A DNA stretch of 46,765 bases, from assembly GCA_020832825.1 (NCBI GenBank), contig JAJHRL010000003.1, forward strand, positions 1-46,765, read 5' to 3'. The notes beneath the pieces are model-generated. The model did not search any database. It had not been told where the DNA came from and saw nothing but the letters and a program-made list of their open reading frames with translations. The DNA comes from Candidatus Aenigmatarchaeota archaeon (GTDB lineage: Archaea; Aenigmatarchaeota; Aenigmatarchaeia; CG10238-14; SpSt-28). Below are positions 9,161 to 44,289 of the stretch, in pieces (positions within the stretch are counted from its first letter, which is position 1; each line of letters starts with the position of its first letter). Position numbers and translations under genes: made by a program.

Positions 9161-10030
9161 TTATTCCCAGAAAGGCTGAGCCCTTCGAACCATGAAGAGA
9201 AATAGAAGGGAAACTGCAGGTAAGAAAACAAAAATCATGAAGAGCTGTAGAGGTAAAATGTTTTGAAGGGTTCCAAGCGTTGAAACTATTGATGTCAAAA
9301 CAACAAAGAAAATGGTTCCAAGTATGACAGAGACTAAGTAGATTTCGGTATAGATTGTCATGCTGTGTGAAAACTCAGAAAGCTTTCTCTTGTAGTCTAA
9401 GAAAAAATCTGCAGTCTTCTCTTTGACAAAAATATAGACATTTCCACCACTTCTTATCGTCGATAAAATACCATATAAAAATTCCCTAAACTTTCTTGAT
9501 GGTGTTCTAGCTATTGCCCTTTCCAAAGCTGATAAAACATCTAGTCCGTAAAACTCGATATCATAAACAATCTTCCTAAACTCATCAACAACTGCATTTT
9601 TCTCACTAAATTCTGTAAAAGTATGAAATGCTTTATGTAAAGGTAAGCCAGAGCCAAGTATTGAGGAAAGATGGAGGGTAGAAAAGGGTAAAAAAGTGTC
9701 TATCTCCTTTTCTCTTTGCATAACAAGAGATTTGGGATACCTTATATAGATAAAGAAAACAAGAAGGGGTAACAAAGTGGCTAAAGTTACTGAAGTTAAG
9801 TAACCGAACAAGAAAGAGGCAGAAGCTAAAGATATAGAAAACGCCAGTATTGGCAATATGATTATAAACGTTAGCAAGGAAGCAAAAAACGCGTTAGCTA
9901 GGTATTCTTGAGAGGAAATTTTCAGGTTAGCTTTTTTTAAATCTTCTCTTAGCTCAGGAAAATACGGCTCTGCTTTTTTTGCCAAATCTCCAAAAAGTCT
10001 AAATGCATAGGTGGATATCATCCTACCCAC
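9161..10030 (-). CDS. Type IV pilus/T2SS platform protein, TadC/GspF family
   Basis: EIDTFLPFSTLHLSSILGSGLPLHKAFHTFTEFSEKNAVVDEFRKIVYDIEFYGLDVLSALERAIARTPSRKFREFLYGIL plus TM helices. Confidence 0.85.
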   Translation of the reverse strand: MGRMISTYAFRLFGDLAKKAEPYFPELREDLKKANLKISSQEYLANAFFASLLTFIIILPILAFSISLASASFLFGYLTSVTLATLLPLLVFFIYIRYPKSLVMQREKEIDTFLPFSTLHLSSILGSGLPLHKAFHTFTEFSEKNAVVDEFRKIVYDIEFYGLDVLSALERAIARTPSRKFREFLYGILSTIRSGGNVYIFVKEKTADFFLDYKRKLSEFSHSMTIYTEIYLVSVILGTIFFVVLTSIVSTLGTLQNILPLQLFMIFVFLPAVSLLFLFMVRRAQPFWE

Positions 10031-11732
10031 TTTCTATTAGAGCCAAGACCCTATTTGGTGTTGAGTAATATGCAGAAAGAATGGCGTAAACTTCCTTAAA
10101 GTCTGTAATATTCTTTTCTTTCATCCATTTTAAAATGGCCACTCTTCTTTGAAATTCATCTAGAATTTCCTTCTCACTTAATCCGAAAGATTGTGAAATT
10201 CTTTTCAAAACTACACTTCTTTCCCCAATTTCAAACGTATCGTTAAATGGATTCCATTTAAATACATAATTAACAATTGGGTTCCTTTCCTCTTTAGGAA
10301 ATTCGATCATCTCTACCACTTCGGTTATTCTCCTTACAGATTTTTGTTTGTATTTAATTCTTTGTAAAAACACTATAATGTCCAAACTTCCAATGAGAGA
10401 ATGTGGAAGAGAAATAGGTGGTGATGTTAATCTATCTACTAGTTTACTAAGATTTTCTGCGTGAATAGTTGCAAGAGATGGATGTCCTGTAGCCATTTGT
10501 TGGAATAAAACATATGCCTCTTGACCTCTTACCTCTCCCAAAATAAGATAGTCTGGCCTTTGTCTTAAGCTTTCTTTAAGTAGTTGAAAGAGATCAATCT
10601 CGCCTTCTTTCCCTGTAGAAATTGGTGTTCGTGCTACATGAGAAACCCAGTGCGGATGTGGTAAAATTATTTCCGCTGTATCTTCGATAGAAACTATCTT
10701 TTTTTCGGGCCTTATGAACAAGGACAGAACGTTTAAGAGGGTTGTCTTCCCGCTCGCTGTACCCCCTGCCACTAGTATGCTTCTTCCGTAATCAACAACT
10801 AACCAAAGATATGCTAATATTCTCTCATCAGCTGTACCATAGTTAATTAAATGGATTGGAGTTAGTGGCTCTTCTGAAAATTTCCTTATTGTAAAGTTAC
10901 TTCCTCTTCTTGCTATATCTGTTGCTAGTGTTGCTTGCAGTCTTGAGCCATCTGGCAGAGTACCGCTAACCAAGGGTTGGGAAATCGACACACTCTTTCC
11001 TGCAAGCTGCGCCAATTTTATAACAAAAGAATCCAGCTCATCCGGATCGCTGAAAACTATGTTTGTTGGAATAGAGCCAATTCGAGGATCCCTATGAAAA
11101 ACAAAAACAGGTATGTCTAATCCGTCACAGCTTATATCCTCGATATTAGGATCTTTCATTAATGGCTCGATTCTACCTAAGCCAAGAAAATCTCTCTCTA
11201 TGTAATACCTCACAACTTCAATTTCCTCTGCTGTAAGTTTAAATTTAAAGTATCTAATGATATCCTCAATTTGTTTTTTCAGGTATTCCTTAGCTCTCAT
11301 TAGATTCAACTTAGATAGGTCAACATCCAGCCTCTGCTCTAATAGCTCTTTTATCCTTTTAATCGTTTCCTTCATTTTATCATTTAGTTTTGGTTCAACC
11401 AGTTCGTAGAAGTAGGTTTGTCTCCTTCGATCCCAATATATTTTAGCAAATGCAAATATTTTCTCGCCTTCCTTTGGACTTCTAGGAATCAAAGGATAGG
11501 AAAGAGAAACTTCTTCTGGCTGAGGTTGAGGTGAAGGTGGTATTATCCTGAGTTGTCTTGGAATGGCTATGCCTTCGATTTCTTTCTTCTCTTTATCTTC
11601 CTTTTCTTCACTCATGATTGAAACGACGGGTTGTAGAGGAGGTAGTTGTGTTTCTAACTTTTCTTCTGATCTGCTTGAAATTTTCTTCCACCCTTCTGTC
11701 GCTTTCTTAAAAATTTTCCTAGCTAATCTCAT
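10023..11732 (-). CDS. Type II/IV secretion ATPase (GspE/VirB11/TadA family)
   Basis: Walker A VAGGTASGKTTLLNVLSLF, Asp box SIEDTAEI, LILGEVRGQEAYVLFQQMATGHPSLATIHA. Confidence 0.95.
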   Translation of the reverse strand: MRLARKIFKKATEGWKKISSRSEEKLETQLPPLQPVVSIMSEEKEDKEKKEIEGIAIPRQLRIIPPSPQPQPEEVSLSYPLIPRSPKEGEKIFAFAKIYWDRRRQTYFYELVEPKLNDKMKETIKRIKELLEQRLDVDLSKLNLMRAKEYLKKQIEDIIRYFKFKLTAEEIEVVRYYIERDFLGLGRIEPLMKDPNIEDISCDGLDIPVFVFHRDPRIGSIPTNIVFSDPDELDSFVIKLAQLAGKSVSISQPLVSGTLPDGSRLQATLATDIARRGSNFTIRKFSEEPLTPIHLINYGTADERILAYLWLVVDYGRSILVAGGTASGKTTLLNVLSLFIRPEKKIVSIEDTAEIILPHPHWVSHVARTPISTGKEGEIDLFQLLKESLRQRPDYLILGEVRGQEAYVLFQQMATGHPSLATIHAENLSKLVDRLTSPPISLPHSLIGSLDIIVFLQRIKYKQKSVRRITEVVEMIEFPKEERNPIVNYVFKWNPFNDTFEIGERSVVLKRISQSFGLSEKEILDEFQRRVAILKWMKEKNITDFKEVYAILSAYYSTPNRVLALIESG

Positions 11733-34226: not shown

Positions 34227-34318
34227 GGGCTCGTAGCTTAGCCTGGTGGAGCACCCGCCTTATATGGCGATGCTCCTAGGAAAGCGGGGGGTCGTGGGTT
34301 CAAATCCCACCGAGCCCA
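34227..34318 (+). tRNA. tRNA-Ile (UAU) with 18-nt intron
   Basis: Spliced: GGGCTCGTAGCTTAGCCTGGTGGAGCACCCGCCTTATAAGCGGGGGGTCGTGGGTTCAAATCCCACCGAGCCCA; tRNA-Ile-like body; loop CT-TAT-AA. Confidence 0.92.
34265..34282 (+). other. tRNA intron at 37/38 (18 nt)
   Basis: Clean BHB: outer CCCGC/GCGGG, central CTTA/TAGG, 5' bulge TA^T, 3' bulge AA^A, which fixes anticodon TAT. Confidence 0.9.
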
Positions 34319-34356
34319 CTACTTCATTCTTATTAGTATGGGAGATAAAAATAGAA

Positions 34357-36456: not shown

Positions 36457-37056
36457 TTAAAGGGGTAGTGATGTAGTTCTGAATGAACTGAAGAGTTGAA
36501 GTAGTGAAGAAAGTGAAACTGATCTAGAGATGTAAATTGCCAGTGTTAAGTAAAAGGTTGCACCAACTGCTAGCATGAGTAAGCTTACTGCTACCCAAAT
36601 TGTAACTATATCTAGCTTGAAACTTTCCTTTAAAACTCTAAACGCCCCAGCAAAAGCAATTGCGAAATAAAGGGTAAAAAGTAAAGCTCCTAGAGCTACT
36701 GCAACCTTTTCTTGCCATCTGAAGATTACCGAAATCAATAGCGAAGAGAAAGCTACTCCAAAGAAAGGATAGACGAAAGCTATTAAAGCACCTGTAAAAT
36801 CTCCTTTACCTCCAAGTGTTGTTAGAATGGTTTGGGTAAAGAAGGCAACCACTAAAGTTCCTATTATTCCTCCGGTAAGGACTAGAGGTATTAGCGAAAA
36901 ATTCTGTGAAGGTAATCCTAGAGCTAAACTAAGAAAAATCCAGTCAATTACTAGCATTACTAACGCCTCGTTTGCATTTTTTTCCTTCGCTACTTTCGCT
37001 AGCGTCTCATGCGGTGCTGTTAAAAGCTCTTTTAGGAGTCGAGCCGTTATTGGCAT
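36457..37056 (-). CDS. Yip1-like multi-TM protein
   Basis: LLKELLTAPHETLAKVAKEKN followed by five to six TM helices. Confidence 0.6.
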   Translation of the reverse strand: MPITARLLKELLTAPHETLAKVAKEKNANEALVMLVIDWIFLSLALGLPSQNFSLIPLVLTGGIIGTLVVAFFTQTILTTLGGKGDFTGALIAFVYPFFGVAFSSLLISVIFRWQEKVAVALGALLFTLYFAIAFAGAFRVLKESFKLDIVTIWVAVSLLMLAVGATFYLTLAIYISRSVSLSSLLQLFSSFRTTSLPL

Positions 37057-37086
37057 AATGGTTGTTAAATTTTATATTTAAATGCT

Positions 37087-37332
37087 TCAAGCTTCTTCTT
37101 TTGCCATTTGATAAATCTCTCTTACCATCTTCTCTATACTTGAGATTTTCTCCGCTAGCAACTCATATTGAAGTTTTAAAGCGTCTATCTTTGCCATCAA
37201 GATTTCCATTTCTGGTTTTTGTTTCTCTTGAGTTGGTGCTTCTACATTTTTTACTTGCTGCAGTTGTTGGATAGGCGGAAAAACGGGCTCTTCCTTCTTC
37301 TCCTTTCTAAACGGGTTTCTAATCTTAAACAT
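37087..37332 (-). CDS. Small coiled-coil protein
   Basis: 81-aa ORF with basic N-terminus and C-terminal coiled coil AKIDALKLQYELLAEKISSIEKMVREIYQMAKEE. Confidence 0.6.
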   Translation of the reverse strand: MFKIRNPFRKEKKEEPVFPPIQQLQQVKNVEAPTQEKQKPEMEILMAKIDALKLQYELLAEKISSIEKMVREIYQMAKEEA

Positions 37333-37360
37333 TCTTGATTTTGCTTCTCTAACTTAAAAG

Positions 37361-37858
37361 CTATTCTAACTTAAGCAAAGATTTATAAGCTCGTAGAATC
37401 TTCTCGATCATCTCGCTACACATTTTTATATACTGTCTCCTTACTCTAAAGTAAAAAAAGAAATTGTAGAGCCAGAGAAGAGTTTTATAAAACGATGACT
37501 GTTGAAATGGTGTAATCAGCTTAAATTCAGTTTTAAGTTTACCTCCAATAAGGATAGTAAGCGTTCCATCTTTAGATGGATCTGTAGGTTGATTTCCGTC
37601 CATTACTATTTCAAAATAAATAGTGCTTCTTGCATCCATTCTTTTCTCAACAATTATTCTTGCATGAAATCCTCTTGGGTCAGAAGCTATACTCCACACA
37701 AATTCCCTTTCCTGATAATCTGCAGGATCGATCTCAATAGCTGCACGAAGAAGGCTATAAGCGGATTGATAAGCTTGGAATGGATTTGGTCCTTTATATA
37801 CAATTTTGACATGTCTCTCTGGAGCCAAACAATCGTCTTCTAAAATCCATACTGGCAT
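37361..37858 (-). CDS. Unknown-family protein, paralog of 37860-38408
   Basis: Shares VKIVYKGPNPFQAYQSAYSLLRA / EREFVWS / DPSKDGTLTILIGGKLKTEF pattern with its neighbour. Confidence 0.7.
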   Translation of the reverse strand: MPVWILEDDCLAPERHVKIVYKGPNPFQAYQSAYSLLRAAIEIDPADYQEREFVWSIASDPRGFHARIIVEKRMDARSTIYFEIVMDGNQPTDPSKDGTLTILIGGKLKTEFKLITPFQQSSFYKTLLWLYNFFFYFRVRRQYIKMCSEMIEKILRAYKSLLKLE

Positions 37859-37859
37859 A

Positions 37860-38408
37860 TTATCTCCTAGGTAGCGTATTTAGAAACTCTTTAATCGAGG
37901 AATGTAACTGCATCATGAGATTTGCACACTCTCGTTTATACTTCATTCTAGCTTCTTCATATATGAATTTATGATAAAACGTCCTAAAAAGTTCGTAAAG
38001 CAAACTTCTTTGCCAAAGTGTATCTTGTGGATACTCTGTTCTTAGCATACCCTCAATAGTAATAGAAAGATCTCCTTCCTTTCCTACTTCCTTACTTGGC
38101 CTTATTTTTCCTTTCATCGTTACACTTATTTGAATGTAGCTAAACCTATCCATATCTTTTATTACATCAAACCTTACAGAGAATTTTTCTTCCATTCCTT
38201 CTCTCATCCAACTAAAATCTCTTTCTATTATTTCGGTTTCCGGAACTTTGGTTATTTGAGATAGAATCTTTTTTGTTTGATAGTATGCTGCTTGAGGATT
38301 TGGACCGGAATATTCTAAAGTTATAAACTTCTTGCCTGGAAAAGGAGACCCAGGCACTTCCAAACAATCCTCATGAATTACCAACTTTGTTCTCGCAAAT
38401 ATTGGCAT
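37860..38408 (-). CDS. Unknown-family protein, paralog of 37361-37858
   Basis: Shares ITLEYSGPNPQAAYYQTKKILSQ / ERDFSWM / PSKEVGKEGDLSITIEGMLRTEY pattern with its neighbour. Confidence 0.7.
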   Translation of the reverse strand: MPIFARTKLVIHEDCLEVPGSPFPGKKFITLEYSGPNPQAAYYQTKKILSQITKVPETEIIERDFSWMREGMEEKFSVRFDVIKDMDRFSYIQISVTMKGKIRPSKEVGKEGDLSITIEGMLRTEYPQDTLWQRSLLYELFRTFYHKFIYEEARMKYKRECANLMMQLHSSIKEFLNTLPRR

Positions 38409-38519
38409 AAATATTTTTTGATGCTACATTAATATTATTTATGGAGCAACCACATTATACAACTCAAACAATTTTGGTAAATATTTTCCTCTGTTGTGTT
38501 TACTTTTTGAGGTGAAAAA

Positions 38520-38678
38520 ATGCAGAAAATTGTTGGATTTATGTTAATCTTGATTGGTCTTTCCATGATAATTTTTTTTCCATTTTTAGACAGATATCAA
38601 CCTGAAGAAATGGCCAAAACTGCTGCCTTAATTGGAGCAATACTAACTTTTGCTGGAATTTTTCTTCTCAAAAGTTAA
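38520..38678 (+). CDS. Small two-TM membrane protein (52 aa, absent from ORF track)
   Basis: MQKIVGFMLILIGLSMIIFFPFLDRYQPEEMAKTAALIGAILTFAGIFLLKS*; preceded by a GAGGTG-like ribosome-binding site. Confidence 0.65.
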   Translation: MQKIVGFMLILIGLSMIIFFPFLDRYQPEEMAKTAALIGAILTFAGIFLLKS

Positions 38679-38700
38679 TATTCACAAATAAAAATTAGTT

Positions 38701-40473
38701 ATGATTGAGTATCCGCGTTATCCTGCAGATTTTCCTCCGAAGATGAGACCTGGGGAAGGAGTAAATTCAAATCCCAATGATCAAAATGAAACTTTGGTTT
38801 ATAGTGCTCCGTTAGGAGGATGTACTAAAGTTTACTACAGTCTGATGGTTTGGCTTGGAACATGGGGGTTTCAAACCTTCAAAGTTGAAGAGAGCATATT
38901 CGTTTCTCCAGTAAATAAGAATTACTATGAAATCGTGTTAGGAGAGAAAGAAAGACTGGCCCAGCAGATTAAAACTGGTTTAACAAGCATTGCTCAAGCT
39001 TATGCGGATCTTGAGCTAATTTTACATGATCTAAGAAAGTACAAAGAATATGTAAGGCTTTTCAACGAAATTGAAGAAGCAGAAAATATTTTAAAGAAAG
39101 AAAAAGATGAAAAGAAAATTGAAGAGGCGAAAAATAAGAAGATAAAGGCCTTACAAACATTAAGATCCATTTTCATAGATCAAGTTGACGTGCATACAGA
39201 TTTACCAAATGTTCCTATAGCCCTTCGCTCTATTGCTTCAAGATGGCCAACTATAATCTCAGATTTTATGAAGCTTGATAATGAAAGCAAACCAGAAGAA
39301 ATAAAATTAGATGTTTCCTATGCTGAAAAAGTTGTACTAGCTACAAAGAATAAGCTATTCTGGAGTTGGTTGGAAATGTTTAAGAATACGGTTAAACAGA
39401 GGTACGAAAGGTTAAAAGAGCTGGCTGTGGCAAGGGAAAACTCTGTAAGAGAATATAAAGAGATGCTAAAACCAATTGCAGCAAGATATAAGATGATAAA
39501 TGACATGCTTAGCTTTCCTGAAAAGAGGGGGAGAATGTATGTTCACGTTTTTAGACCAGAGGCTCAGGCTTTTTCTATAGATACTATGACTGTGTGGGCC
39601 TGGAAACCGTTTGCACCAGAGGAAAAATGGAAAGCGAGCAGGCAGCAATTTGACAAAGTACCTGCAAAACAAGCCGGTTTTACTGATGAGGAAATAGAGG
39701 AGATAAAAAAAATTCAAAAAGAGAAAGGTAAGAAGTATGTCGATGAGAATGGAATGGTAGAGGCTTTGCCAATAGAGCCTTCTATTGATGGTATTGTAAG
39801 AGAAATAGTGAGAAAAATAAATGAAGATTCGGAATATAAAAAGTTTGGAGTAAAAATTACTACGGAAGACCTTTTTGAAGCAAGAAAAAGACTTTTAGAG
39901 AGATACCGCAAACTACCTGAAGGATCTGGCGGTGTAATTTGGCCTTTTAGTCCGTATTTCGTATTTGTTGAGATTCCAATGAGAAGAACATGTCTGCTCC
40001 TGCCAGATGGTACCCAGCTTGAAAGTCTGGCTATAGAAAATTTAAGAACATATGTTAAGACTCAAAACATAATAATTGGGCACATTCTGGAGGTAATGGC
40101 AAGAGAGAAAATATTAGAGAATTACATAGGCCAACTACTAGGAGAATTTGGAATAGATAAGGAAGGGAAAGTGAAAAAAGTTGAAGAAATGTTAAAGGAG
40201 GAGTTTCCCTATATTTATGGAGAAGTTAAAAAAACAACGGAAACAAAAGAGAAAGAAAAGAAAGCTGGTGTGTTGGATTTTCTGAAGAAAATCATGGACT
40301 ATTTTGGAATTCAACTAACATTCTTAAGATCGTATGGACCTTACGAATTTAATGTAGCTTATCGATTAGCAAAACATTACTTTAAATTCTCTGGAGAAGT
40401 GTTTAAGCAAATCAAAAGTTTTCTTGACTCTTCTTTCCAAGTTCCAGGGGCCTCTGCGGAGGTTAAAATATGA
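38701..40473 (+). CDS. Uncharacterised 590-aa protein with coiled-coil segments
   Basis: Long ORF with no family motif I recognise; stop overlaps the start of the downstream TIM-barrel gene. Confidence 0.75.
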   Translation: MIEYPRYPADFPPKMRPGEGVNSNPNDQNETLVYSAPLGGCTKVYYSLMVWLGTWGFQTFKVEESIFVSPVNKNYYEIVLGEKERLAQQIKTGLTSIAQAYADLELILHDLRKYKEYVRLFNEIEEAENILKKEKDEKKIEEAKNKKIKALQTLRSIFIDQVDVHTDLPNVPIALRSIASRWPTIISDFMKLDNESKPEEIKLDVSYAEKVVLATKNKLFWSWLEMFKNTVKQRYERLKELAVARENSVREYKEMLKPIAARYKMINDMLSFPEKRGRMYVHVFRPEAQAFSIDTMTVWAWKPFAPEEKWKASRQQFDKVPAKQAGFTDEEIEEIKKIQKEKGKKYVDENGMVEALPIEPSIDGIVREIVRKINEDSEYKKFGVKITTEDLFEARKRLLERYRKLPEGSGGVIWPFSPYFVFVEIPMRRTCLLLPDGTQLESLAIENLRTYVKTQNIIIGHILEVMAREKILENYIGQLLGEFGIDKEGKVKKVEEMLKEEFPYIYGEVKKTTETKEKEKKAGVLDFLKKIMDYFGIQLTFLRSYGPYEFNVAYRLAKHYFKFSGEVFKQIKSFLDSSFQVPGASAEVKI

Positions 40474-42296
40474 GCTATAAAATTGGTGTTTCGAGCGGAT
40501 GGTGGAGTATTGCAAGAAGTGAGGAATTATTGGGTATAGCGAGTAAGATAGGTTCTGTTGCAACTTATGGTGTAAACTTCGTTCAAGTTGATTTTGAGAG
40601 CATAGCGGAGTTTCAAGAACCAGAGGTTATCAAAAAAATAAAGAGACTTGTGGATACTCTGCAAGTAGATTGGGGTATGCATGGGGAGATTGGAGAAATG
40701 ATGGCTCTTGAAAGCGCCCTTGAAGTTTTTTGGAAGCATAGTCATAGGAGGCTTCATCAATATTTAGATACAATCTATTTGAAATTCTGGATAGAAGGAG
40801 ATTATAGAGAATACATTCCAAAATACATCGTTTTTCATGCTTCTAATACATTGACAATAGCTATGATTGTTGAAAGATATAGATATGCTGGGCAAATGAC
40901 TGTAACACCATTTGGAGATGTTAATTGGATAGAATTCATCAATAGAAATAAAAAATTAAAGGAATGGGTTGAAAAAAGCAATTTGCTTTACTTTTTAATT
41001 GGAAAGGAGAGCGGTCTCGGTTTTGTATCTGTTGAAGACATAAAAAAGAAGATTTATGAAAAAATAGGAGAAGAGGTTATGAAAGAAGGCGAATCTCTTA
41101 AGGAAGAGTTAGAAAAGGAAGTAGAAACTCATAGGCATGCATGGGAGTTTTTCAGAGAGATTACAAAACTTAGGTTTGCAGAAGGCGCAATAACCTATGA
41201 AGACATAGCATATCTTATAGTAGCAAGATATCTTTTCGAGGAAAGGAATAATCCGAACGAGCCTCTATGGAATCTTTTCTTTCCTAACTATTCAACAGAA
41301 AATGGATGGGAAAAACTTGAAGAAGATTTGATGGGAAAGGAAGTAAAATTCTTAAATATTGAAAAGGGAGAGGTAAGATTACCTCCACAAATAGTAGCTT
41401 TAGTTGCAGCAAGATACATTCTTGGTCATTTCACAGAAAGAAATAAGGAAGAATTTATAGCAGAGGAGAAGAGACAGTTGGAAAGAATTCTACCAAAAGA
41501 CAAATTGAAAGAAATAGAGGAGAATTTCCTAAAGAAAACACCATTCGAGAAACTTGCAATATTAAACAATCTTATCTCAGAAAAAGTAGGAAAGGAGAAA
41601 AGAAAATTCATGATACTTTTTGAAAATCCTGAACTTAAAGCGGCTGGGGAAGAAGGATTACAAAGGCTTATCCACGCTGTTGACATCTACAAAATGGTTA
41701 AAGCTGCAGAAAAAATTGCTAAAGATGTGTACATAGGAATGGTTTTTGATCAGGAGCACTATTTGCACAATAACTTAGACCCAATGAACGAGATAAAAAG
41801 TCTTAAGAGCGAAGCAAGCGACTTAGGAAAGTTTCTTCTCGTTTTCCATGTCGGTGCTCCTAAACCTTATCATCCTGCTCATGAACCGATAGATATTGGT
41901 AGTGAGGCACAATTTTGGATTTACAAATATGCATACGAACTTAGAAAACTTGGATTTGGAGTGGGAGAAAATGAAGGAATTTTTATTTTTGAGAGAGGCG
42001 GAGCCAGAGGACAAACTCCAGCTCAATTTATAGGTCAATCGGCTGCTGCACTAAGAATTATTGTTGAATATCTAGAGAAAAACGTGGAACCAGAAAAGCT
42101 TCCACCAGAATTTTATGGTATTTCCCCGAAAGAGATACTTGCTGAAGAAAGACAGCTTGCTATTATTAGAGAGCATTTCTTCGATCCGCTAAAAGGTTTG
42201 TTGCAAGTTCCTGAGGAAGAATACACATTCTTAGGAAGTAAAGCCATAGAGAAAGGGAAAAGACCTGAAGAATGGAAGAAAGAAGAGATAAGATAA
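40470..42296 (+). CDS. Xylose-isomerase/AP-endonuclease-like TIM-barrel protein with large helical insertion
   Basis: IGVSSGWWSIARSEELLGIASKIGSVATYGVNFVQVDFESIAEF...WGMHGEIGEMM...YIVFHAS...VYIGMVFDQEHYLHNN...FLLVFHVGAPKPYHPAHEPI...IFIFERGGARG. Confidence 0.65.
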   Translation: MSYKIGVSSGWWSIARSEELLGIASKIGSVATYGVNFVQVDFESIAEFQEPEVIKKIKRLVDTLQVDWGMHGEIGEMMALESALEVFWKHSHRRLHQYLDTIYLKFWIEGDYREYIPKYIVFHASNTLTIAMIVERYRYAGQMTVTPFGDVNWIEFINRNKKLKEWVEKSNLLYFLIGKESGLGFVSVEDIKKKIYEKIGEEVMKEGESLKEELEKEVETHRHAWEFFREITKLRFAEGAITYEDIAYLIVARYLFEERNNPNEPLWNLFFPNYSTENGWEKLEEDLMGKEVKFLNIEKGEVRLPPQIVALVAARYILGHFTERNKEEFIAEEKRQLERILPKDKLKEIEENFLKKTPFEKLAILNNLISEKVGKEKRKFMILFENPELKAAGEEGLQRLIHAVDIYKMVKAAEKIAKDVYIGMVFDQEHYLHNNLDPMNEIKSLKSEASDLGKFLLVFHVGAPKPYHPAHEPIDIGSEAQFWIYKYAYELRKLGFGVGENEGIFIFERGGARGQTPAQFIGQSAAALRIIVEYLEKNVEPEKLPPEFYGISPKEILAEERQLAIIREHFFDPLKGLLQVPEEEYTFLGSKAIEKGKRPEEWKKEEIR

Positions 42297-42324
42297 GCTT
42301 TAAAGTTTGAAAACATATTAAAAA

Positions 42325-43152
42325 ATGATTGAAAAGCTGGAAAAAGAATTAGAAAATGTTAAGCTTGTAAAGAAAGACGAAATAGAGGAAAGGAAAAATT
42401 TCTTAATCGAAAAAAGTGTGAAGCTAATGAATGAAGTTAGAAAAAAATTTGGAGAAATAGTTAAATCTGTTTTAATATTTGGCTCCGTTGCGAGAGGCGA
42501 CCTTAAGCCAACTTCAGATGCTGACGTATGGATAATACTCGATGATACTCTTTCAAAGACATCTGTAGATCTAGAAAGAGTGAAAGAAGAGATAGTAAGC
42601 ATGGCAGAAAGTCTGAAGGATTTACATGTACAAACTACATATCTAACTGAATTCTGGCAGTGGGTTAGGGCAGGTTCACCAGAATTGGTGAATTTCCTAA
42701 GATATGGCCTAGTTCTTTACGATACAGGATTTGTAAAACCTGTACAGCGCATGCTTCAACTTGGATTACTTCCTCCTAGTGAAGAAGTCATTAAATTAAA
42801 GCAAAAAACCTCGGAAATAAGACTAGAAAGGATAAAAGGAGATTTGAAAAACCTGGTTTTTGATTTGAGGTATTGCGCGAGCGATATGATACAAGCTGTT
42901 GTTATGTACTATTATAAAACTCAGCCGGATCCAAAAGACATTCCTAAGTATTTGGAAAAAATGATAGAAGAAGGTAAAATAGAGAAAGAGATCCTAGAAA
43001 AGTGGAAAGAGATTGATAAGCTATGGAAAGATGTAGACCATCAAATTGTCAAGGAAGTTGATGGAGAGTATGTTCAAAAAACTTTGAAATTAACACAAGA
43101 AATAGTTGAAAGAATGAAGAAATTGCTTCCTCAAGAAATATTGGAGGTGTAA
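42325..43152 (+). CDS. MNT-type nucleotidyltransferase with HEPN-like helical C-terminus
   Basis: SVLIFGSVARGDLKPTSDADVWIIL matches GSx10DxD; C-terminal helices with WKDVDH in place of an Rx4H motif. Confidence 0.8.
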   Translation: MIEKLEKELENVKLVKKDEIEERKNFLIEKSVKLMNEVRKKFGEIVKSVLIFGSVARGDLKPTSDADVWIILDDTLSKTSVDLERVKEEIVSMAESLKDLHVQTTYLTEFWQWVRAGSPELVNFLRYGLVLYDTGFVKPVQRMLQLGLLPPSEEVIKLKQKTSEIRLERIKGDLKNLVFDLRYCASDMIQAVVMYYYKTQPDPKDIPKYLEKMIEEGKIEKEILEKWKEIDKLWKDVDHQIVKEVDGEYVQKTLKLTQEIVERMKKLLPQEILEV

Positions 43153-43155
43153 AAA

Positions 43156-44289
43156 GTGAATGAAAGAGAGAAAAGAATGCAAGAGGCAAGAGAGTTTGCA
43201 AAGAGGGCATTAGAAAAATATGGCAACCTGATAAAATCTATTGTCTTGATGGGCTCGCTTGCTAGAGGAGAATTTAAGCCAGAAAGTGATATAGACATAA
43301 TAGTAATATTAGATGATACGCTAGAAGAGTTAAGCGAACAAAAATTAGAAGCGATAGATGATGATTTGGAAAAAATAGCAAAAAGTATTTCAGATAGACT
43401 ATCAATTCAACCATCTTACACTTTAACTGAGTTTGTTGATTATGCAAAATCTGGTCATCCCATAGTTTACAATTTCATCAAAGAGGGGGAACCTCTTTTT
43501 GATTCTGGCTTCTTCATGCCATGGAAAAGACTACTTAAACTTGGAAAGATTCAGGGGACGAGGGAAGCAATAGAGAATTATATGGAAGATGCTCCAAAAA
43601 AGTTAGCTAGGGCAAAAACTGTAAAATTGTTAATGCTTGCCGAAGATTGCTATTACGCTATGGTAAACTCAACCCAAGCTGTTCTAATGTTCATGGGTTT
43701 GGAACCACCTGTACCAAGTAAGTTGTATGACGAAGTAATGGAATATCTCGTTAAGCCTGGTCTTTTAGAAGAAGAATATGCAAAATGGTTGAAAGAAATT
43801 GTTCAAATAAGAAAAGACATAGAACATAAAAAACTTTTGGATGTTAAAGGAGAATTTGTAGATCAATGGATTGAAAGAGCGGAAAAATATGTTGAAAAAA
43901 TGTTTAACTTGCTTAATGCGCTTGAGATAAGAAAGAAAGAGAAGATTCTTGAAAGAACGCATGAGGTTATGATTAAAGCTGCAGCAACGGCCATAAAAGC
44001 CTTACATAAGTTGCCAGAAAACATGCAAATAGATGAATTGGAAAAACATCTAGGAATTAGTATAAGAGATGCTTTTAAAAGAGACTTCATAGATTCAAAA
44101 AGAATTGAAGGATATTACTTTGACATTTGGAAAAGAATTGAAGAATTGAAGAAAGAAGTTATAGATGAAAAGAAATTGGAGAAGTTAAAAGGAAATGAAG
44201 TAGAGCAATTGAGAGAATATGTAAGAAAGCTTATTCATGAGCTCTCTAGAGCTTTGAAAGAAGAAAGGAAAAACATTGAACAAAGCTAA
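43156..44289 (+). CDS. MNT-type nucleotidyltransferase with HEPN-like helical C-terminus
   Basis: SIVLMGSLARGEFKPESDIDIIVIL matches GSx10DxD; C-terminal helices with RKDIEH (Rx4H). GTG start. Confidence 0.8.
   Translation: MNEREKRMQEAREFAKRALEKYGNLIKSIVLMGSLARGEFKPESDIDIIVILDDTLEELSEQKLEAIDDDLEKIAKSISDRLSIQPSYTLTEFVDYAKSGHPIVYNFIKEGEPLFDSGFFMPWKRLLKLGKIQGTREAIENYMEDAPKKLARAKTVKLLMLAEDCYYAMVNSTQAVLMFMGLEPPVPSKLYDEVMEYLVKPGLLEEEYAKWLKEIVQIRKDIEHKKLLDVKGEFVDQWIERAEKYVEKMFNLLNALEIRKKEKILERTHEVMIKAAATAIKALHKLPENMQIDELEKHLGISIRDAFKRDFIDSKRIEGYYFDIWKRIEELKKEVIDEKKLEKLKGNEVEQLREYVRKLIHELSRALKEERKNIEQS

Follow-up and report, generated by a model that had tools for sequence, protein, structure and literature searches.

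GlnE and GlnD are modifying enzymes of nitrogen metabolism, and MntA, the nucleotidyltransferase of type VII HepT-MntA, modifies its partner HepT. HEPN domains fused to nucleotidyltransferases of the MNT type are regarded as domesticated and usually inactive (PMC3710099), and GlnD/GlnE-like and aminoglycoside nucleotidyltransferases also carry a nucleotidyltransferase domain fused to a HEPN-like helical domain with a substrate or regulatory role (PMC3710099). For the DPANN archaea, a 2019 survey listed as a top-priority unknown a DPANN-specific MNT-HEPN cluster, cls.004259/NEQ050, which is unexplained, occurs in a housekeeping context, and is better conserved than is usual for toxin-antitoxin families (Makarova, Wolf, Koonin 2019, PMC6393860). 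Here we describe a locus with two such MNT-HEPN proteins, NT275 and NT377, next to a large TIM-barrel protein, TIM608, and the orphan proteins O590, PA165, PB182, and TM52. The locus lies on contig JAJHRL010000003.1 of a Candidatus Aenigmatarchaeota archaeon (GenBank assembly GCA_020832825.1), a 703-kb metagenome-assembled genome in 86 contigs; the window is the whole stretch of 46,765 nucleotides that was analysed, and the conserved set occupies its positions 37361 to 44289.

That this locus exists and is conserved we consider very nearly certain. Our preferred reading of its function, to which we give a probability of roughly 0.4, is a housekeeping enzyme complex, part of the DPANN core, whose barrel protein acts on a phosphodiester substrate and whose MNT-HEPN proteins add a nucleoside monophosphate (NMP) to the product or to a partner.

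The genes diverge from an intergenic gap (38409-38519) that presumably holds both promoters. On the plus strand, TM52 (38520-38678; 52 aa, two membrane helices predicted by hydropathy) is followed by O590 (38701-40473; 590 aa), TIM608 (40470-42296; 608 aa), the short MNT-HEPN protein NT275 (42325-43152; 275 aa), and the long MNT-HEPN protein NT377 (43156-44289; 377 aa), which has a C-terminal extension and a GTG start. The start of TIM608 overlaps the stop of O590 by 4 nt, 28 bases separate TIM608 from NT275, and three bases separate NT275 from NT377. The minus strand carries PB182 (37860-38408; 182 aa), the most conserved orphan of the set, and PA165 (37361-37858; 165 aa). All nine open reading frames (ORFs) that an earlier sequence-only reading had placed in this region are present at their positions and on their strands, and the divergent region that it had seen measures exactly 111 bp.

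Within the Aenigmatarchaeota, TIM608 and the MNT-HEPN proteins are near-universal and essentially single copy: the TIM608 profile matches 134 of the 145 genomes and the NT377 profile 139, and each matches 38 of the 39 near-complete ones. In the 117 genomes with listed positions for both, the two genes share a contig in 82 and are at most 3.5 kb apart in 75, with a median gap of 467 bases. Among 43 loci of the phylum, some of which are cut by contig ends, 36 have O590 immediately upstream of TIM608 in the same orientation, often overlapping it or lying no more than 10 bp away, and 31 have an MNT-HEPN gene within 1.5 kb downstream of TIM608. PB, PA (within 4.5 kb), and TM52 are each found near TIM608 in 28 of these loci; PB182 is divergent from TM52-O590 in 28, and TM52 occupies the same position in 28. 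The whole order, with PA-PB divergent from TM52-O590-TIM608-NT275-NT377, recurs completely or largely in most of a set of 20 loci, 19 of them from this taxonomic order and the other from a different part of the class, and the flanks vary. Among 20 loci that represent other families of the class, this gene order is again frequent, as a rule with just one MNT-HEPN gene.

Because the arrangement is kept across genera, families, and phyla, it is far beyond chance. The co-expressed, undescribed set with conserved archaeal linkage that the sequence-only reading had envisaged thus appears to be borne out by gene order, its homologs being neither scattered nor clearly assignable to housekeeping metabolism. 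The term island, which it had also used, was misleading: there is no sign of mobility, and the locus is vertically kept rather than a mobile island. At one locus of the same family (L033, genome G001), TIM608 has no adjoining O590 or PB/PA gene, the best MNT-HEPN match, a partial one, lies at a distance of 89 kb, and a sugar nucleotidyltransferase gene, which in the window lies downstream of the locus, is about 6 kb from TIM608. A contig scan with a single C-terminal pattern, too insensitive to exclude bacteria or to establish absence elsewhere, returned named relatives that all belong to Candidatus Aenigmatarchaeota except for one labelled just 'archaeon'.

A search of 392 relatives found 28 genomes outside the Aenigmatarchaeota that match the TIM608 profile. 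These fall in phyla 12, 17, and 18, plus one probable unrelated short isomerase-like match; the outside phyla (numbers 12, 14, 16, 17, and 18) are inferred from the genome order, assuming rotation sampling by phylum. In phylum 17, O590 is directly upstream of the barrel gene in nine of nine loci, and an MNT-HEPN gene lies downstream within 1.5 kb in eight. These loci come mostly from closed genomes of about 1 Mb, most with acidic proteins (D+E about 20%, K+R about 13%), and on these two grounds phylum 17 is probably Nanohaloarchaeota. In one of the phylum 17 loci (L117-L127), L124, the O590-TIM-MNT triad sits between a MoxR/DUF58 cluster and an A-type ATP synthase operon. One outside barrel homolog, from its outlying match pattern most likely the one at L126 (genome G338, 9320-10852), appears to lack most or all of the metal ligands described below and is possibly an inactivated or different paralog.

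Phylum 12 has PB, PA (within 4.5 kb), and TM52 near the barrel gene in four of nine loci and an MNT-HEPN gene after it in three, and in phylum 18 two MNT-HEPN genes follow the barrel gene. In one phylum 16 genome, genes for an O590-like protein (hhalign P=96, E=1e-9) and for a 671-aa barrel protein that exceeds the gathering score of PF01261 (E=1e-13) flank a 221-aa ORF and are followed by one for an MNT-HEPN protein of 266 aa, all of them on a single strand; in a second genome of this phylum, a similar barrel gene (670 aa) has an O590-like gene (E=1e-5) nearby. Furthermore, PB182 is confined to those sampled archaeal phyla that have MNT-HEPN: it occurs in eight of 62 genomes spread over other archaeal phyla, and all eight have a full-length MNT-HEPN protein.

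The AlphaFold2 model of TIM608 is an eight-stranded TIM barrel (pLDDT 83, pTM 0.85), in keeping with the barrel-like fold that had been suggested from the translation. Between strands 4 and 5 the model contains a helical insert of about 240 residues (residues 133-373; 40866-41588, plus strand), which is absent in ordinary endonuclease IV (Endo IV). The Pfam family AP_endonuc_2 (PF01261) matches eight of 21 TIM608 family members, with a best value of 1.5e-8; the TIM608 of the window itself matches neither this family nor the curated Endo IV model TIGR00587. Its best PDB sequence-profile matches are an apurinic/apyrimidinic (AP) endonuclease and two Endo IV enzymes, all of them weak (E=0.01-0.06).

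The resemblance to Endo IV is clearest in the putative active site. In TIM608, H71, H123, E385, D427, H460, H471, and E508 are invariant and H430 is near-invariant, these eight residues being kept in at least 40 of 41 Aenigmatarchaeota sequences and in 17-19 of 20 outside sequences. By our own reading of the conservation and the model, they would be placed on strands 3 to 8, at the C-terminal ends or close to them, like the metal ligands of the superfamily. A recent crystal structure of Endo IV has nine metal ligands, namely H75, H115, E153, D187, H190, a third His, D237, H239, and E269 (PMC13113976), and eight of the nine have counterparts in TIM608 by motif, position, and conservation. In addition, when the insert is left out, the barrel profile can be aligned at E=3e-7 with the Endo IV-like protein (274 aa) of the same genome; in this alignment H71, H123, D427, and H430 face histidines and the D-x-x-H motif, and E385 faces or adjoins a glutamate.

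Since a short Endo IV-like gene of about 275 aa is present in the window's genome and in nearly all sampled genomes, TIM608 is a specialised paralog. For the same reason, the idea that it is the genome's sole AP endonuclease was rejected. The short gene of this genome (L145, contig G000:C15, 1677-2501; 274 aa) scores below the TIGR00587 cut-off and is a candidate short AP endonuclease, and exonuclease III-type (PF03372) genes were found in just nine of 44 sampled genomes. Small PF01261 barrels of about 265 aa, resembling fructoselysine epimerase and CbiR, stand beside NT377 in one genus (L022 5859-6656, L023 12869-13666, L024 13721-14512, and L025 12286-13083), and other small PF01261 genes occur near NT377 in families f10 and f12.

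NT275 and NT377 align over their full length (E=4e-47) and are both MNT-HEPN fusions. Of the twin MNT-HEPN enzymes first suggested, the nucleotidyltransferase domain stands above the Pfam cut-off in both proteins, whereas HEPN does so in NT275 only. The nucleotidyltransferase motif of NT377, GSLARGEFKPESDID (43252-43296, plus strand), contains the glycine, serine, and both aspartates that are kept in 87 of 87 aligned MNT-HEPN proteins, and the motif is intact in NT275 as well. The HEPN R-x4-H motif is more variable. In NT377 it is intact (RKDIEH, R219-x4-H224; 43810-43827, plus strand), and it is kept in most, indeed nearly all, Aenigmatarchaeota NT377 proteins and in the long copies of phylum 16; it is lost in NT275, where the arginine is replaced (WKDVDH), and in phyla 12, 17, and 18.

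With the MNT motif present throughout and the HEPN motif missing from several groups, nucleotidyl transfer would be the common activity of these proteins, with HEPN at most an optional nuclease. This pattern agrees with the domestication view (PMC3710099), and the loss of the HEPN RNase motif in several phyla speaks against a toxin. In the tree, short copies (NT275 together with copies from phyla 14, 16, and 18) stand apart from the long copies, though the deep split has a support of only 78/88. This separation suggests an old origin of the short/long pair and a near-ancestral arrangement in the window. An initial view of NT275 as a recent duplicate of this order was revised, as the short copies of other phyla group with NT275. 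A role of the MNT-HEPN proteins in replacing a missing CCA-adding enzyme was rejected, since PF09249 is found in 39 of 40 genomes.

With type VII HepT-MntA these MNT-HEPN proteins share the two domains and the MNT active-site motif, whereas here the domains are fused and duplicated, the HEPN motif is dispensable, the distribution is that of a core genome, and the partners are other proteins. They resemble GlnD/GlnE-like and aminoglycoside nucleotidyltransferases in the fusion of a nucleotidyltransferase to a HEPN-like helical domain; however, matches to those models score low, and the genomic setting is different. The comparison with cls.004259/NEQ050, likewise an MNT-HEPN fusion, widespread in DPANN and in a housekeeping context, is one of architecture and distribution. 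One component of the set is probably this already listed DPANN orphan. The main text of the survey names no partners or pathway for it (PMC6393860), in contrast to the present locus with O590, the Endo IV-like barrel, and PB/PA.

The remaining members of the set are orphans. The O590 model (pLDDT 76, pTM 0.66) combines long coiled-coil arms with a small alpha/beta part. Its conserved residues include H109-D110-x-R112, D163, D188, E209, K216, and W223, and since the polar ones are kept in most of 49 sequences, O590 may be more than a spacer. PA165 and PB182, noticed earlier as two related proteins of the minus strand, are indeed paralogs (hhalign P=100, E=1e-39). PB182 has a Y-P-Q-D-T motif and invariant W67, D87, G100, G112, Q128, and R154. 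Searches of Pfam, NCBIfam, and PHROGs with both proteins, and a PDB profile search with PB182, gave nothing consistent.

In the complex that we propose, O590 and TIM608, whose genes overlap, would be made together and would probably form one complex. The AP_endonuc_2 superfamily includes both phosphodiesterases such as CbiR and isomerases (PMC7733943), and for this reason we infer the chemistry of TIM608: it would be a metal-dependent enzyme on an Endo IV/xylose-isomerase-like scaffold, most likely a phosphodiesterase, whose nucleic acid or nucleotide-linked substrate would be held by the large helical insert. The MNT-HEPN proteins would be domesticated nucleotidyltransferases, not toxins, that add an NMP either to what the barrel enzyme produces (a nucleic-acid end, for instance) or, as regulators, to a partner protein. 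PA/PB and TM52 would be accessory subunits, and TM52 possibly tethers the complex to the membrane. The version that we find most attractive is nucleic-acid end processing. A bolder extension, which we regard as doubtful, is a hitherto undescribed machine that spans the DPANN superphylum: a coiled-coil protein would join an enlarged Endo IV-like metallo-phosphodiesterase and a duplicated nucleotidyltransferase in cleaving and then re-nucleotidylating nucleic-acid ends. Such a machine would go back to an early DPANN ancestor, with the O590-TIM-NT275-NT377 order still present in the window.

Several observations weigh against the proposed phosphodiesterase-nucleotidyltransferase complex. The second Asp of Endo IV (the D of the D-x-H pair) is without an obvious counterpart in TIM608, and O590 has no structural analogue, no PDB match being better than E=0.06 in sequence searches or 0.1 in structure searches. 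The linkage is also incomplete: in some Aenigmatarchaeota families the MNT-HEPN gene is far away or on another contig, in phylum 12 O590 does not adjoin the barrel gene (it was not found or lies beyond the divergent gap), and in the phylum 18 loci O590 was not found. Finally, Foldseek with the TIM608 model places sugar epimerases above AP endonucleases, the top matches being ketose 3-epimerases acting on D-tagatose or psicose (E=5e-5) and an AP endonuclease following at E=3e-3, so that the chemistry could be isomerisation.

This last result would lead one to think of a sugar-metabolism or cell-surface module, in which the barrel is a sugar or sugar-phosphate isomerase or epimerase, the MNT proteins nucleotidylate sugars or a carrier, and the membrane protein hints at the surface. 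Besides the structural matches, some barrel relatives weakly match fructoselysine 3-epimerase models, and the small gene beside NT377 in one genus is epimerase-like. However, MNT-type enzymes differ from the NTP_transferase fold that serves nucleotide sugars, and no glycan genes were seen to accompany the locus from phylum to phylum. The barrel also retains the additional histidines found in the multi-metal site of Endo IV, a feature that is not fully diagnostic, as histidines occur there in the small epimerase-like gene too. Taken together, we consider such a module unlikely, albeit a genuine contender.

The universal MNT motif and the optional HEPN motif would suit regulatory protein modification, in which O590 or TIM608 is switched on and off through AMPylation or UMPylation by the MNT-HEPN pair, in the manner of GlnE/GlnD and of MntA with HepT; fused MNT-HEPN proteins have been proposed to be domesticated toxin-antitoxin modules turned into protein-modifying regulators (PMC3710099). 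On the other hand, no conserved acceptor residue was identified, and a regulator would not need two paralogs beside the gene. As the full account of the locus this explanation seems rather improbable; it is compatible with the phosphodiesterase-nucleotidyltransferase complex and not opposed to it.

TIM608 could also be an ordinary AP endonuclease of base excision repair with unrelated neighbours, as its superfamily, its barrel, and its Endo IV-like ligands would allow. This we hold to be very improbable, because this genome, like nearly all others, has a separate Endo IV-like gene, and because TIM608 has both its insert and a tight co-conservation with O590 and MNT-HEPN. TIM608 differs from Endo IV in being about twice its size, in its insert and missing D of D-x-H, in its linked partner O590, and in the lack of an Endo IV model match. 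To our knowledge, there is no Endo IV with such an insert and such co-conservation.

Least probable of all is a toxin-antitoxin or anti-virus defence system, one of the settings that the sequence-only reading had brought up; the distribution of the genes, the domain fusion, the lost motif, and the partner families led us to reject it. Both domains, MNT and HEPN, are characteristic of these systems, the R-x4-H motif is intact in Aenigmatarchaeota NT377, and the PADLOC candidate-defence models PDC-S09 (E=3e-14) and PDC-M05A (weaker) match the MNT-HEPN proteins of the window, but these genes are near-universal, vertical, and essentially single-copy core genes and not patchy like mobile modules, MNT and HEPN are fused and not separate genes, the HEPN motif is lost in three other phyla, the two proteins reach 25.2 and 29.9 bits with the NCBIfam MntA model against a cut-off of 60, and none of the neighbours identified is a defence or mobile gene. 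PADLOC gave no match for O590, TIM608, PA, or PB and no system-level set, just generic candidate MNT models.

These matches have a consequence for genome surveys. A 2026 survey found DPANN to be enriched in candidate 'PDC' defence genes, with the nucleotidyltransferase-HEPN type PDC-M05 enriched in archaea (PMC12988326). Because the MNT proteins of the window match PDC-S09 and PDC-M05 models, defence-system scanners may count a core enzyme as a candidate defence gene, and DPANN defence counts may include a housekeeping family.

In the literature on Aenigmarchaeota and DPANN core families, covered mostly through open literature and main texts, no description of the gene set as a unit was found. 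Within that scope, the enzymatic domains come from known superfamilies, but their combination with O590 and PA/PB corresponds to no system type known so far; a DPANN-specific MNT-HEPN was already listed in 2019, and its partners are new. If the MNT-HEPN family of this locus is the same as NEQ050, the concrete partners and the active-site hypothesis given here make the question testable. The set itself likely matters to DPANN cells. DPANN genomes are tiny, yet a set of at least five proteins, most of them without a family name, is kept in nearly all members of the phylum and across several phyla.

Two further genes of the minus strand had been counted as members of the set. A Yip1-like membrane protein of 199 aa (36457-37056) has a nearby counterpart in only two of the 20 mostly order-level loci and was rejected as a member. 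CC81 (37087-37332), a small coiled-coil protein of 81 aa, is patchily conserved, occurring nearby in about half of these loci, and is best seen as accessory; on these counts neither gene is core. Elsewhere in the window, ARAGORN calls a tRNA at 34227-34319, with an unreadable anticodon, that overlaps the start of a listed 334-aa ORF.

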